A stretch of 46,631 bases of DNA from Pseudomonadota bacterium (GTDB lineage Bacteria > Desulfobacterota > Binatia > UBA9968), in assembly GCA_021324155.1 (NCBI GenBank), contig JAJPJQ010000006.1:1-46631 (forward strand), written 5' to 3'. The notes beneath the pieces are model-generated. The model had not been told where the DNA came from. It did not search any database and saw nothing but the letters and a program-made list of their open reading frames with translations. Below, piece after piece: positions 26,548-31,920 of this stretch; position 1 is the stretch's first letter; every line of letters starts with the position of its first letter. Made by a program: the position numbers and the translations under genes.

Positions 26548-27372
26548 TTATTTTCCCCAGTCTCTGGCATACCGGAAGTCGCGGTCGATCGTGCGCTGCG
26601 AGACTTTGGCGATGACGGGCAGGCGGCGCTTGAAATGCGAGTTCATGACGCGGTCGTTCACCTGGTCGACGAAACGCTCATCGAAACCCGCCTCGATGAG
26701 CTCGGCGCGCGAATAACGCTCATCGACCATCAGGTAGAGCAGCCGGTCGACGTCGCGGTAGCTGAAGCCAAGCTCGCCTTCGTCGGTCTGCCCCTGCCAG
26801 AGATCGGCTGACGGCTCTTTCTTAACGACGACCTCCGGCACGCCCACCGCTTCGGCGAGCGCCCACACCTGCGTCTTATAGAGGTCGCCGAGCGGATTGA
26901 TCGCCGACGCCATGTCGCCGTAAAGCGTTCCGTAGCCCAGGAGCAGCTCCGTCTTGTTGCTGGTCCCGAGGACCAGCGCCTGCCAGCGCGCCGAGTGATC
27001 GTAAAGGATCGTCATCCGCTCGCGCGCCATCTTGTTGCCGCGACGCCGCGCGTCGGCGTCGGGGAAGCGCGTGAAATAGGCGTCGATCTGCGGCGAGATG
27101 TCGACCGTCAGCGACTCGATCGGCGCCTTTTTCACGATCAACTCGGCGTGCGCGCGGCTTTCCGGACTCGAAGTTTTGTACGGCATCATGATGCCGAGTA
27201 CATTCTTCGGCCCCAGCGCCTCGGCCGCGAGCAGCGCGCTGAGGCTCGAGTCGACGCCGCCCGAGAGCCCGACGACGACGCGCTTGACGCCGACCTTCTC
27301 GACCTCGTTGCGGATGAAGCTGGTGAGAATCTTTCTGAGCAGCGCGACGTTGGTGGGGATCTCGCCGCCCAT
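26548..27372 (-). CDS. nadE: NAD+ synthase, ammonia-using domain
   Basis: A 274-aa NadE that amidates nicotinic acid adenine dinucleotide to NAD using ATP. I start it at ATG 27372, which overlaps the TGA of the upstream nitrilase gene by one base (TGATG); a longer frame upstream is antisense-like. The P-loop for ATP pyrophosphatases is SGGVDSS at residues 37-43. Further blocks are [21 protein letters not shown] and [16 protein letters not shown]. This is the synthetase part only. The glutaminase part is encoded by the preceding overlapping gene, so the two proteins probably form a glutamine-dependent enzyme. Confidence 0.95.
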
Positions 27373-28316
27373 CAACGTCTCTTTTTCGGATTCTTGCCGC
27401 GCCCGCCGAGACCCTTGCTGCCTCTGATGACGCGCAGGCCCTTGACGAGACGCGCGGGCTTCACGTTCGACGGCCGCTCGCGGATGCGCAGCAGCTCGTT
27501 CACGGTGAGATCGATGTCTTCGTCGCGCAGCAGCGGCGCGGCCGCGCGCTTTCTGCGGACGGCGTCGAGCGCGATGTTGCCGGCGATAAAATCTTCCTCG
27601 TAGTATTTGGCTTTCGCGATCCGGCGGCCGAACGGATCGACGATCTCCGAGCCGCCCCAGAAGCCGACGCCGTCTTCGAAGCCGACGCGGTTGCCGTAGA
27701 CCATGAAGAGGCTGAATGTCTCCGCGTAGGCGCGGTTGATCATCTCCCAGTAGCGCGCGTTGTCGTCCTGCGGCTCTCCGTCGCTGATGCCGCGCAGCGG
27801 GCTCGTCGACGGGCACAAGACGGTGACAGCGCCGTCGAGCGCCGCGAGATAAATCGTCGAAGGATGCCACAAGTCTTCGCAGATGAGCACCGCGAGCCGC
27901 CCGAAGCGCGTATCGAACGCGCGCACGCGGTCGCCGCGCGCGAAGTAGCGCTGCTCGTCGAACATGCCGTACGTCGGCAGATAGACTTTGCGGTGAACGT
28001 GACGCGCCTCGCCGCGGTCGAAGTAAACCGCCGCGTTGTAAAAGCGGTAGTCGGGCCCTTCTTCGACCAGACCGGCGACAAAGGCCATATCGCGGCTCAG
28101 CTTCTTCAACCGGTCGATCTCCGGCGCCGACAGCCTGAGCGCGACGTTCGGCACCATGTCGCGAAGGAAATATCCGGTAAGGCTCAGTTCCGGAAAGAGC
28201 AGAAGATCGGCGCCGCGCTTCGCCGCGAGGCGAATTTGCTCCTCGTAGATCGCGAGATTGGCGGCGACATCTCCAAGGCGGGGATTTATTTGCGCGATAG
28301 CGACTCGAAACGCCAC
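27372..28316 (-). CDS. Nitrilase-superfamily amidohydrolase, probable glutaminase subunit for NadE
   Basis: A 314-aa carbon-nitrogen hydrolase. The start is GTG 28316 with GAGG upstream. The catalytic triad is visible: Glu43 in [10 protein letters not shown], Lys110 in [10 protein letters not shown] and Cys146 in [10 protein letters not shown]. These blocks match the glutaminase domain of glutamine-dependent NAD synthetases. Most such enzymes are single two-domain proteins. Here the domain is a separate gene whose stop overlaps the nadE start, which favours equal production and ammonia channelling between subunits. The C-terminus ends in a basic Lys/Arg-rich tail that could contact NadE. Confidence 0.88.
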
Positions 28317-28354
28317 ATCAGCCTCACGGAAAGGCTAACACAGGGGGTAAACGC

Positions 28355-28383
28355 TTGCAATTTAAGCTGAGGAGACAGAGAAT
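28355..28383 (+). promoter_or_regulatory. Candidate promoter for the selenoprotein gene
   Basis: A plus-strand -35-like TTGCAA (28355-28360) and a -10-like GAGAAT (28378-28383) are spaced by 17 bp, downstream of the divergent nitrilase gene start. The match to consensus is modest. It is the only plausible pair seen before the glutaredoxin-like gene at 28458. Confidence 0.25.
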
Positions 28384-28389
28384 TGCGAC

Positions 28390-28439
28390 AGAGATAGAGA
28401 AAAGACAGATAAAGACTTCGCTGCGAGATTTCTATCTCT
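28390..28439 (+). other. Inverted repeat in the 5' leader of the selenoprotein gene
   Basis: AGAGATAGA (28390-28398) is exactly complementary in inverted order to TCTATCTCT (28431-28439), 9 bp with a loop of 32. It could form a leader hairpin before the weak ribosome binding region of the gene at 28458. No function is known. Confidence 0.4.
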
Positions 28440-28457
28440 CTCTGCCTGGTTTATTTT

Positions 28458-28670
28458 ATGGAAAAAGTTCTCATCTTCGGCCAGGATCTCTGACCTTACA
28501 CGCGCAAAGCCCGTGAGGCTTACGCACAACGAAACATCCCCTTCGAGTATATCAATGTCCTGAGCGATGCCGACGGACTCAAGCGCATGCTCGCGCTCAA
28601 CGATAATCAGCGCGACATTCCAGTCATCCTCGAAGCCGGCAAAGTGACGGTCGGCTTCGGCGGCACTTGA
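28458..28670 (+). CDS. Glutaredoxin-like selenoprotein (in-frame UGA as selenocysteine)
   Basis: Translated from ATG 28458 to TGA 28668-28670 with the TGA at 28491-28493 read as selenocysteine, this gives a 70-residue thioredoxin-fold protein. It begins MEKVLIFGQDL, then U12-P-Y-T, then RKAREAYAQRNIPFEYINV, and ends IPVILEAGKVTVGFGGT. Position 12 is exactly where glutaredoxins have the first Cys of CPYC. The rest keeps glutaredoxin order: strand, active site, helix, IPFEY strand and cis-Pro in DIPVI. It matches what I recall of the UXX-type glutaredoxin-like selenoprotein family. A SECIS-like hairpin follows the UGA. The ribosome binding site is weak. The alternative is a Cys-form gene broken by one mutation, but the intact downstream frame argues against that. 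Confidence 0.85.
28491..28525 (+). promoter_or_regulatory. Bacterial SECIS-like element after the in-frame UGA
   Basis: After the UGA (28491-28493) the coding RNA can fold a stem of AAGCC (28507-28511) with GGCUU (28517-28521). The apical loop is CGUGA with GU at 28513-28514, and an outer GCG/CGC stem (28502-28504 with 28523-28525) lies across a small internal loop. The loop GU is 20 nt after the UGA, and a G lies in the first two loop positions, as in bacterial SECIS elements bound by SelB. Confidence 0.65.
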
Positions 28671-28681
28671 TCGGTCTAAAT

Positions 28682-28698
28682 CGCCCACGGCGTGGGCG
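28682..28698 (+). terminator. Hairpin after the selenoprotein gene
   Basis: CGCCCAC (28682-28688) pairs with GTGGGCG (28692-28698) around a three-base loop, 11 bp after the stop codon. There is no clear T-run, so it may end transcription weakly or protect the 3' end. Short tandem words (TTACGAGTTTCGGG, TTGCGAGTTTCGAG) follow at 28706-28733. Confidence 0.4.
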
Positions 28699-28813
28699 GT
28701 AGCAGTTACGAGTTTCGGGTTGCGAGTTTCGAGCCGGGCTGGCGGTGGAAAAACCAATCGCTAAAAGTGAAATCCACGCTTCTTTACTTGAAAGCCGGAG
28801 CCAGAGACCGCGA

Positions 28814-30043
28814 CTACGCTTTCTTAAGCGTGAGATGCGCGATCTGAGGAGGGCAGTTGATGCGGACGGGCAGCCCGGTAATGCCGATGCCGCGGCCGAC
28901 AAACAGCATCGAGCTTTTCGCGTCAGCCTTCGCGATGCTCCGGCGCGGCAGGCGATACATGCCGTCGACATACGGCGTTAGCAGCCGCGCGATCGAGAGG
29001 TTCGCCGCCTCAGGACCGAGCTTGACCTGCCCTCCGTGGTAGTGACCCGAGAGCACCATCTCGACGCCGCTCGCGGCGGCCGCGGGAAAGATTTCCGGCC
29101 GGTGCGATAACAGCAGGCGCACCTCGCCCGGCTGCGCTTGGGCGGCGGCGAGCGCCCGCGACAGATCCGGCTCGCCCGACCGCAGGTCGTCTATACCGAG
29201 CACGCTCAGCGAACTGTTTCCGATGCGGTGCGCGACCGCCTCGTTCCTCAGCATGCGGATGTTGTTTTCGGCGAAGCGCCGCGTAATCTCGTCTTCGATG
29301 CCGGCGTACACGTCATGATTTCCCAGGCAGGCGTATATGCCGCGCTTCGCGCGCAGACGCGACAAGGCCTCGACGCAGGGTTCGACCTCGGTACGGCTGC
29401 CGGCGACGAAATCGCCGGTGAGCGCCACGAAATCCGGCTCGAGCCGATTAATCGCTTCAACGTAGGCCGCTAATTCCTCTCCGGGCATGAACGGGCCGAC
29501 ATGAATATCGGTCAATTGAACGATCGTCGACCCGTGCAGCGCGCCGGAGAGACCGTCGAGCGGAAATTCGAAATGTTCAATCTCGAAGCGGCGGCGCTCC
29601 ATCAAAGCGCCGTAGCCCGAAAGAACGAAAGGCGCCGCGGCAATCGTGCCGAGGCCGGTTTTGAGAAATTCCCGGCGCTGGATATCGGGCGCTGTCGGCA
29701 AACGCGAAAGCCGCGTCATCGCGCGGCGGGCAAAATCGTAACCGATCAGCACGAGCGTCGAGCCGGTCGAGCCCAGCGCCCAAATGGCAAAAAGCACAAT
29801 CTGCGCGCGAACGAGCCACGGATAAGGCTGTCGTGCGACCAACCCATAAAGGCCCATGGAAACCAGCGGCAGGAACATGAAAATCAGAAAACCCGCCGCG
29901 GCTGCGATCAGGAGCGCGGCGCGTTTCGGATCTGGAATTTTGTCGCCGATATAACGCCGGGCGCAGCGAAAAAGATAAACTTGGCAAGCGATGTACAGAC
30001 CGATAAGAAGAAAAAAAGGCACGCGAGGACTCGTAAAATTCAC
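28814..30043 (-). CDS. Membrane-anchored metallophosphoesterase (YkuE-like)
   Basis: A 409-aa protein with three N-terminal membrane helices (about residues 8-25, 42-70, 78-104). A further hydrophobic segment follows an Arg-Arg pair, RREFLKTGLGTIAAAPFVLSG, which resembles a twin-arginine-type anchor. The calcineurin-like phosphoesterase domain carries TDIH, LTGDFV, GNHD, LSHRPE and GHYHGGQVKLG, so all metal-binding motifs are present. YkuE-like enzymes of this type act on the outer face of the membrane on unknown phosphoesters. The start is GTG 30043. It is divergent from amgK with a 48-bp gap. Confidence 0.92.
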   Translation of the reverse strand: MNFTSPRVPFFLLIGLYIACQVYLFRCARRYIGDKIPDPKRAALLIAAAAGFLIFMFLPLVSMGLYGLVARQPYPWLVRAQIVLFAIWALGSTGSTLVLIGYDFARRAMTRLSRLPTAPDIQRREFLKTGLGTIAAAPFVLSGYGALMERRRFEIEHFEFPLDGLSGALHGSTIVQLTDIHVGPFMPGEELAAYVEAINRLEPDFVALTGDFVAGSRTEVEPCVEALSRLRAKRGIYACLGNHDVYAGIEDEITRRFAENNIRMLRNEAVAHRIGNSSLSVLGIDDLRSGEPDLSRALAAAQAQPGEVRLLLSHRPEIFPAAAASGVEMVLSGHYHGGQVKLGPEAANLSIARLLTPYVDGMYRLPRRSIAKADAKSSMLFVGRGIGITGLPVRINCPPQIAHLTLKKA

Positions 30044-30091: not shown

Positions 30092-31162
30092 ATGACGGAA
30101 TTGTTACAAGAACAGATATCCGAGGAGATCCGTCGCGCGCTCGGACCGGCGGTGCGCCTCGCCGCGCTCACGCCGCTGGCGGGAGACGCCTCGAGCCGCC
30201 GCTATTATCGCGCGCGGCTGGAAAATTCGCCGCGAGCGGATTCGTCGATCGTGATGGAGCTCGCGGGCAGCGCGCTGCCATTGTCTTCCGAGGAGCTCGC
30301 GATCTTCAAAGAGCCTCCGACGGAGCTGCCGTTCATCAACGTGCACCGCTTTCTTTCCACGCTCGGCGTCCGAGTGCCCGCGCTGTTCGGTATCGCCGCC
30401 GGCGGGAAGCTTCTACTCCTTGAAGACCTCGGCGACCGCGCGCTCTGGGACGCAGTCCAGGCGCTTCCCTCCGACGAGATTTTCGCCTGGTATCGGAAAG
30501 CCGTCGATCAGCTGCTGCTGCTTCAGGTCGAGGGCATGCGCCGCCGCGACGACCGCTGCGTCGCGTTTCAGCAGCGATTCGACTTTCGCCTGTATCAATG
30601 GGAATTCGAGCACTTCATCGAATACGGCTTGGAAAAAAGACCAGGCGGGAAAGTCTCGGACGCCGACAAAAGCCGCCTGCGCGAGAGCTTCGACGCAATC
30701 GCGCGGCGCCTCGAAGGGCTTGAGCCGTGCCTCAGCCACCGCGATTACCACAGCTGGAATTTGATGGCGCTCGACGGCGAGGTCGCGGTCATCGATTTTC
30801 AGGACGCGCTGCTGGCGCCGCCGCAGTACGATCTCGCTTCGCTGCTGAACGATCGTGAAACCGATCGCATCATCGACGCCGGGCTCGAAGCGCGGCTCAT
30901 CGATTATTATCTCGAGCGCCGCGAAGCGCTCGGGCTCGCCGCGGATCGCGCCGAATTCTTCGACGACTACATCCTTTCGGCGCTGCAGCGCGATTTTAAA
31001 GTCGTCGGTCGCTTTTATTATCTCGACGTGGTGAAGGGAAAGCCCGGTTACAAAAAATACATCTCGCCCACGCTAAAGCGTCTGAAGCGCAACCTCGAGC
31101 GCGCACCGCGCTACCGCAAGCTGATCCCGCTGCTGGAGGCTCATTTCGAGGAGCTTCGGTGA
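30092..31162 (+). CDS. amgK: Anomeric N-acetylmuramate/N-acetylglucosamine kinase AmgK
   Basis: A 356-aa kinase of the aminoglycoside-phosphotransferase fold. The active-site block is CLSHRDYHSWNLM and the metal-binding block is VIDFQDALLAPPQYDLASLLND, both very like AmgK. The N-terminus has the LAGDASSRRYYRA nucleotide-binding loop. AmgK phosphorylates MurNAc at C1 in peptidoglycan recycling, bypassing new synthesis of UDP-MurNAc. Its partner murU follows with a 4-bp overlap, which strongly supports the call. The start at ATG 30092 has AAGG just upstream. Confidence 0.92.
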   Translation: MTELLQEQISEEIRRALGPAVRLAALTPLAGDASSRRYYRARLENSPRADSSIVMELAGSALPLSSEELAIFKEPPTELPFINVHRFLSTLGVRVPALFGIAAGGKLLLLEDLGDRALWDAVQALPSDEIFAWYRKAVDQLLLLQVEGMRRRDDRCVAFQQRFDFRLYQWEFEHFIEYGLEKRPGGKVSDADKSRLRESFDAIARRLEGLEPCLSHRDYHSWNLMALDGEVAVIDFQDALLAPPQYDLASLLNDRETDRIIDAGLEARLIDYYLERREALGLAADRAEFFDDYILSALQRDFKVVGRFYYLDVVKGKPGYKKYISPTLKRLKRNLERAPRYRKLIPLLEAHFEELR

Positions 31163-31920
31163 AGGCGATGCTCTTTGCCGCCGGACGGGGCACGCGCCTC
31201 GCGCCGCTGACCGACAGCGTGCCGAAGCCGCTCGTGTCCGTCGCCGGCCGCCCGATGATCGAATATCCGCTGTTACTGCTGCGCCACTACGGCATTACCG
31301 ACATCGTCGTTAACATTCACCACCTCGGCGCGATGATCGAGGATTACCTCGGCGACGGTCGGAGGCTCGGCGTCAATCTCAGTTATTCGCGCGAGACCGA
31401 GCTGCTCGACACCGGCGGCGGGCTGCTGAAGGCGCGGCCGTTTCTCGACGGCGGCACCTTTGTCGTGGTCAACAGTGACGTGCTGATAGATCTCGATTTG
31501 CGCGCCGTCATCGAGCGCCATCTATCAACGCGCGCCGCCGCGACGCTGGTGCTGCGCGCCGATCCCGACGCCGATCGTTACGGCGCGATCGAGCTGTCGC
31601 GCGACGGCCGCGTGCAGAAGTTTTTGCATCATGTAGCTGCGTCGAGCGGCTCCGCCGGGCCGCTGAACAAATTCATGTTCACCGGCGTTCAAGTATTGGA
31701 GCCCCGCATTTTCGATTACATGGAGAGCGAAACATCGCGCCGCTTCGGGACGACGACCGCGACGTATCCGAAGATGCTCCTGGACGGCGCCAATCTTCAA
31801 GGTTTTGCGTTCGACGGCTTCTGGCACGATCTCGGAACGCCGGAAAGCATTCGGAGCGCCGAGGCGAAGCTCGCCGCGGGCCGGGCACGGCTTCGATACC
31901 TGGGATCGCCTCAGACCTGA
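31159..31920 (+). CDS. murU: N-acetylmuramate-1-phosphate uridylyltransferase MurU
   Basis: A 253-aa nucleotidyltransferase starting at GTG 31159 within the end of amgK (GTGA). The nucleotide-binding signature is LFAAGRGTRLAPLTDSVPKPL at the N-terminus, and the metal Asp lies in VVVNSDVLIDLD. MurU turns MurNAc-1-phosphate and UTP into UDP-MurNAc, returning recycled cell wall sugar to murein synthesis. Proteins of the glucose-1-phosphate thymidylyltransferase type look similar, but the amgK partner decides the call. The 3' end overlaps the convergent ZIP gene by 10 bp. Confidence 0.92.
   Translation: MKAMLFAAGRGTRLAPLTDSVPKPLVSVAGRPMIEYPLLLLRHYGITDIVVNIHHLGAMIEDYLGDGRRLGVNLSYSRETELLDTGGGLLKARPFLDGGTFVVVNSDVLIDLDLRAVIERHLSTRAAATLVLRADPDADRYGAIELSRDGRVQKFLHHVAASSGSAGPLNKFMFTGVQVLEPRIFDYMESETSRRFGTTTATYPKMLLDGANLQGFAFDGFWHDLGTPESIRSAEAKLAAGRARLRYLGSPQT

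Follow-up and report, generated by a model that had tools for sequence, protein, structure and literature searches.

We describe a small gene on the plus strand of a Binatia genome (GenBank assembly GCA_021324155.1) that belongs to UXX-star selenoprotein family 1 and is, on the sequence evidence set out below, very likely to encode a functional glutaredoxin-like protein in which two UGA codons are predicted to be read as selenocysteine (Sec, U). The gene lies at positions 28458–28679 of a 46,631-nucleotide stretch of contig JAJPJQ010000006.1, the whole of which is called the window here. The gene itself, its reading frame, its family, the conservation of both UGAs, a hairpin behind each of them and the genes of the Sec machinery are established directly.

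A first-pass annotation of the window had pointed to a plus-strand thioredoxin-fold frame between two minus-strand genes, with a TGA at the glutaredoxin active site, and both observations hold. The frame starts with ATG at 28458, is open through the segment GFGGT, and carries an in-frame TGA at 28491–28493 (residue 12) that gives the active-site motif U-P-Y-T. The same annotation took this TGA to be the only one in the frame and ended the gene at 28670, for a product of 70 residues with one U; however, the last bases of that interval, 28668–28670, are themselves a second in-frame TGA (residue 71, GFGGT-U-S-V-stop), from which the frame continues through S and V to a TAA stop codon at 28677–28679, two codons further on. 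With TGA translated as U, the product from the ATG at 28458 has 73 residues and two U, reading MEKVLIFGQDL-U-PYTRKAREAYAQRNIPFEYINVLSDADGLKRMLALNDNQRDIPVILEAGKVTVGFGGT-U-SV-stop. A family search of the whole genome returned the same locus with two TGAs inside it (88.8 bits), and its sole other match was a CPYC protein without a TGA, below the cut-off at 42.8 bits.

The proposal that the gene encodes a UXX-type selenoprotein was borne out by comparison with curated families. The protein matches NCBIfam model NF041114.2 ('UXX-star selenoprotein family 1') along its full length (1–70 of 70) with 103.4 bits against a cut-off of 72 (E 5.7e-30), and the subfamily model NF041212 with 82.8 bits against a cut-off of 66. 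It shares with this family the UxxT motif, the two in-frame TGAs and the C-terminal U-x-x-stop, to which the name 'UXX-star' probably refers; apart from ending in U-S-V, where U-G-V is the commoner ending, nothing about it is distinctive within the family. The models for UXX-star families 2 and 3 (NF041211 and NF047338) recognise some similarity, at 43.1 and 37.5 bits, but their cut-offs of 100 and 97 are missed, as is that of the HUGP/GUXX-star fusion (NF045501; 48 bits, cut-off 325). Beyond the selenoprotein families, residues 4–58 match Pfam PF00462 (Glutaredoxin) at 31.3 bits against a cut-off of 22.9. The site U-P-Y-T is not that of a dithiol glutaredoxin, a CxxC with a resolving Cys; a low score was also obtained with TIGR02181 (28.8 bits, cut-off 90), and those with the NCBIfam models of glutaredoxin 3 and NrdH lie far under their cut-offs.

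Table 1 of a 2026 review (PMC13188914) has an entry for 'Distant Grx-like protein 1 (UXX-star selenoprotein family 1)' with the motif UxxT and two Sec residues, as found here, and the gene therefore belongs to a catalogued kind; it is an additional member of a known selenoprotein family. 'Distant Grx-like protein 1' is also tabulated with UxxT in PMC9312934. For UXX-star family 2 the review, in the portion covered, cites Haft and Tolstoy 2025, and PMC2398784, placed directly ahead of reference 62 in its reference list, is presumably the source behind its entry for family 1; the table passages covered do not use the name.

Both UGA sites are conserved well beyond this genome. In a sample of 395 genomes from the phylum, 100 contained an over-cut-off match, together providing 104 copies, the window's included, all of which were read. 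The C-terminal site is TGA in every one of the 104, having been placed by rule in 96 and by a GGTU or GRTU motif in the other eight, which were excluded from the counts of stop codons and hairpins (n = 96); one of the 96 placements is wrong, since in locus L151 the rule chose a later TGA, and the earlier GGTU of that copy is likewise a TGA. At the N-terminal site, 90 copies have U and 14 have Cys. The second codon past the C-terminal U mostly encodes V or I, and the third, among the 96 placed copies, is TGA in 49, TAA in 24, TAG in 19 and not a stop in four; an exact U-x-x-stop ending was seen in 91/104. One genome (G367, locus L043) has tandem UXX-star copies at C16:100071–100271 and 100496–100696, each with two TGAs.

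A second scan, of named genomes, gave 27 loci, 26 of which passed a 40-bit filter with a profile built here (L100 failed); because peptides of the window protein, including GKVTVGFG, served as queries, this set is biased towards relatives with that segment. The loci come from records labelled Deltaproteobacteria, Acidobacteria, Planctomycetota, Methylomirabilota and others. The N-terminal site is evenly divided between U and Cys (13 each), and the C-terminal site is U in 26/26 by rule, 25 of them cleanly, the C-terminal U of L087 being displaced (GFGGES-GVGFTU) with no stop behind it. Cys at the C-terminal site was found in none of the 104 phylum-sample copies and none of the 26 named loci.

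A structure predicted with AlphaFold2 from 26 sequences (mean predicted local distance difference test score 95.9, predicted template modelling score 0.85) agrees with the Pfam match in assigning a thioredoxin/glutaredoxin fold. The closest solved structure is the thioredoxin-like protein BC3987 (3zij; Z 10.6, root-mean-square deviation 1.7 over 66 residues), with an equal Z for cGrx1 (PDB 7c12; 1.8 over 65 residues) and 10.4 for a second cGrx1 entry (7c10), and the top rows of a Foldseek search were mostly glutaredoxins. Glutaredoxin 3 and NrdH have this fold in common with the window protein as well; together with BC3987, they are dithiol CxxC proteins without Sec. In sequence, the likeness to cGrx1 is weak (about 25% identity; E 0.0026 for 7c12) and the alignment ends short of the C-terminal U. 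We take natural cGrx1 to carry Sec at the first active-site position. The VIA structure alignments span residues 1–69, meaning that the C-terminal Sec tail was barely compared with known structures.

In the mechanism that we propose, SelB would bring Sec-tRNA to the two UGAs, each cued by its own selenocysteine insertion sequence (SECIS) hairpin, and the product would be a glutaredoxin fold with one selenol, U12, at the usual active site and a second, U71, at the C-terminus. U12 would work at the glutaredoxin active-site position, while U71, right behind the conserved GFGGT, would be a second reactive selenol, and the two may take part jointly in one reaction. We think that the C-terminal Sec, rather than standing in for a resolving Cys, would be the defining functional residue of the family, because U71 is invariant in the phylum sample, U12 can be replaced by Cys, and some relatives hold both a CxxC and the C-terminal U. 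The last of these observations, made in ten of the 26 named relatives (CPYC or CPFC), argues that U71 does not simply replace an absent resolving Cys. As for the chemistry, we give even chances to thiol/selenol exchange between U12 and U71. This is favoured over the alternative that, in the same gene product, the two selenols mainly bind a metal or metalloid instead of catalysing thiol exchange; metal binding is named in the covered part of PMC13188914 as one possible role of Sec in UXX-star family 1, but the predicted glutaredoxin fold and the UPYT site would favour redox chemistry, and we regard the binding role as possible though the less likely of the two.

Each of the two UGAs is followed by a SECIS-like hairpin. 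The bacterial SECIS (bSECIS) model given in PMC13188914 calls, in the part covered, for a loop of 3–9 nt, a stem of 4–16 bp, a G within the first two loop positions, a distance of 16–37 nt from UGA to loop and a minimum free energy of at most −7.5 kcal/mol, and both hairpins, taken whole, lie within these bounds. Hairpin 1 (28502–28525, plus strand) has the loop CGUGA (28512–28516) 18 nt past Sec codon 1 and folds with −9.3 kcal/mol; its core, CCCGTG(A/C)GG, is found in 10/12 close copies, and by our reading the lower stem would be formed differently in some relatives. Hairpin 2 (28680–28700, plus strand) consists of 9 bp, one of them G-U, and the loop GGC (28689–28691), again 18 nt past its Sec codon, with a folding energy of −14.7 kcal/mol (z −2.3). 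Its first base directly follows the TAA, so that the hairpin lies entirely 3' of the stop codon; because only two residues follow the second Sec, the second SECIS would be located in the 3' untranslated region.

The hairpin behind the C-terminal site recurs among the relatives. Under a strict rule applied to the upper stem, this site passes in 70/96 copies of the phylum sample, compared to 11.0 expected from shuffled sequences, and in 21/26 named loci, compared to 1.8 expected. For the N-terminal site of the phylum sample the numbers are 22/90 against 4.4 expected where the residue is U and 3/14 against 1.2 where it is Cys; Cys-type N-terminal sites of the named loci pass in 0/13 (0.2 expected). 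Covariation in hairpin 2 was assessed in a small set of six close relatives with three-base loops, five others (L161, L162, L164, L165 and L166) being left out because their three- or four-base loops were out of register in an 11-sequence alignment. In these six, 95.2% of the cells are paired and three of the seven pairs have changed on both sides, giving a covariation score of 0.371, compared to 0.029–0.057 for slid-partner controls; the score and the percentage paired were each matched in 7/500 shuffles and the number of cells changed on both sides in 25/500. A role of hairpin 2 as a transcription terminator was considered and rejected, as no terminator-like site was found within 28300–28850, and Rfam, at gathering scores, had no match over the window. 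We infer that Sec would be incorporated at both UGAs.

These data also bear on whether only the first UGA encodes Sec, with the second acting as an ordinary stop and yielding a single-Sec protein of 70 residues. The second TGA is indeed near the expected end, and the Pfam match goes no further than residue 58. Against this, a true stop at that position would have to be TGA in all 104 copies, whereas all three stop codons are used two codons further on; V or I predominates at the second of the extra codons, a covarying hairpin stands behind the second TGA, the NF041114 match reaches residue 73, and Table 1 of the review counts two Sec for the family; we consider a single-Sec product very unlikely.

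The genome of the window (G000; 98% complete, 53 contigs) has the genes for SelA, SelB, SelC and SelD, as the first-pass annotation had expected of the host; its first refuting condition, a genome lacking all Sec machinery, thus does not apply. They all lie on another contig, C16, and comprise a tRNA-Sec gene (selC, 257–347, 74.8 bits; called tRNA-SeC(tca) by ARAGORN), selD (68287–69216, 392 bits), selB (69325–71211, 412 bits) and selA (71316–72650, 603 bits); the window itself contains no tRNA. The selD gene has a single in-frame TGA, reading GUAAK, and the SelD of this host is thus a predicted selenoprotein too. In a set of 19 genomes of relatives, selA scores over cut-off in 18 and the UXX-star gene in 13, with 12 genomes having both, six only selA and one (G198) only the UXX-star gene.

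The substitution pattern indicates that the reading frame is under purifying selection. Compared with the copy in a genome of the same family (L054), 48/70 residues are identical, with a rate of synonymous change (dS) of 1.3 and of non-synonymous change (dN) of 0.23; dS and dN are 1.66 and 0.27 relative to L075, and 1.31 and 0.26 relative to L076. Signs of decay, which the first-pass annotation had named as refuting evidence, were absent: no frame-breaking change was found in 12 close copies, the window's included, one of which (L162) has Cys at the N-terminal site. Among the loci compared, L159 is cut at a contig end, and L167 and L168 were unmatched by the search pattern; the gene copies of the latter two genomes score over cut-off and have only TGA inside. 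Similarly, none of the 13 over-cut-off copies in the set of relatives has a TAA or TAG within the gene, TGA being the only such codon.

A short gene with two in-frame TGAs might also be a decaying pseudogene with two nonsense mutations, and the over-cut-off copy in G198, a genome without sel genes over cut-off, would fit such a history. However, the TGAs occupy identical codons in relatives labelled Binatia, Acidobacteria, Planctomycetota and Methylomirabilota, dN is far under dS with no further break in the frame, and the Sec machinery is present in the gene's own genome, which leaves this explanation even less probable than a single-Sec product. The 58 open codons between the two TGAs are not rare on their own, having a chance of about 0.11 from base composition, and a minus-strand open reading frame at 28362–28757 overlaps the gene; nevertheless, a chance or antisense frame without a product is the least probable reading of all and is excluded by the family match (E 5.7e-30), the fact that relatives retain both TGAs and the bias towards synonymous changes, in line with scores from our profile of 17.8 bits for the reverse-strand shadow against 99.7 in L009 and, for the strongest shadow, 61.0 against 113.0 (L086).

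Several observations weigh against a functional double-Sec gene of this family or against parts of that interpretation. Thirteen of the 104 phylum-sample copies run past the U-x-x-stop, slightly or far (for example GGTU-P-V-K-stop in L154); seven loci, L142–L147 and L154, have a longer stretch ahead of the C-terminal U (such as GFAGDASLRGGIPLFGGTU-P-V), an ending other than U-x-x-stop and an N-terminal site that is mostly U-P-[FY]-C. The ten named relatives with CPYC or CPFC and a C-terminal U have low scores in our profile and may represent sister families. Of the two hairpins, the first has the weaker support, because N-terminal sites with U in the named loci pass the strict upper-stem rule in only 2/13 (1.0 expected); its whole fold has a z of only −1.3 to −1.8, and its upper stem alone, at −5.5 kcal/mol, fails the −7.5 rule. 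For hairpin 2, the number of pairs changed on both sides was equalled in 66/500 shuffles and that of further pair types in 222/500, both unremarkable. Lastly, G198, the genome of L054, retains the gene with both TGAs, and no selA, selB, selD or tRNA-Sec was detected over cut-off in this assembly, listed as 100% complete in 240 contigs; in G399 (790 contigs), where the search covered selA, selD and tRNA-Sec, selA is partial and the other two are not over cut-off. Gaps in the assemblies could plausibly account for this, the alternative being a real loss, which in G198 would have left a selenoprotein gene stranded.

The gene is flanked on both sides by minus-strand genes. Upstream is the amidase (glutaminase-like) part of an NAD synthase (27372–28316; NF010588 151.6 bits, under the full-length cut-off of 479), a homologue of which also precedes the gene in L054, L076, L157 and L159. 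Downstream is an LpxG/YaeI-like metallophosphoesterase (28814–30043), which scores under curated cut-offs and adjoins the gene in L054 too. No neighbour is widely shared across 121 loci, most of them inspected for about 1.5 kb per side, the largest cluster comprising 13 loci and a nadE neighbour being limited to some close relatives; gene context therefore yields no function. Separately, we observed that the NAD synthase of the window (26548–28316) appears as two overlapping frames rather than a single long chain, the amidase-like one and a NadE part within 26548–27870, and a separate amidase-length frame occurs likewise in L054 and L076. Further along, at 30092–31920, lies a pair of genes for an AmgK-like kinase and a MurU-like nucleotidyltransferase, under curated cut-offs; the kinase also lies close to the UXX-star gene in L054, L155, L163 and L076.

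The least ordinary features of this gene family are a SECIS beyond the stop codon and, in about half of the copies, a UGA stop nine bases past the Sec UGA. Hairpin 2 would recode the UGA that lies nine bases upstream of the stop, and since the true stop is itself UGA in 49/96 copies (for example L027, L030 and L035), a single hairpin would need to recode the first UGA yet spare the second, nine bases on. We found no discussion of a SECIS past the stop or of a UGA stop near a Sec UGA in the literature searched, which included the covered portions of PMC13188914, PMC2398784, PMC9312934 and PMC12013277 and had the source paper of the UXX-star names outside its scope. Taking the two parts of our interpretation together, we lean towards hairpin 2 being a bacterial SECIS that acts from the 3' untranslated region, with the C-terminal selenol possibly the reactive centre of the family. 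Ordinary gene callers can be expected to overlook a double-UGA gene of this type; here, the gene is confirmed and its end corrected. Such families are a small natural system in which to test how SelB discriminates between neighbouring UGAs, and whether the SECIS of a bacterium can work past the stop codon.
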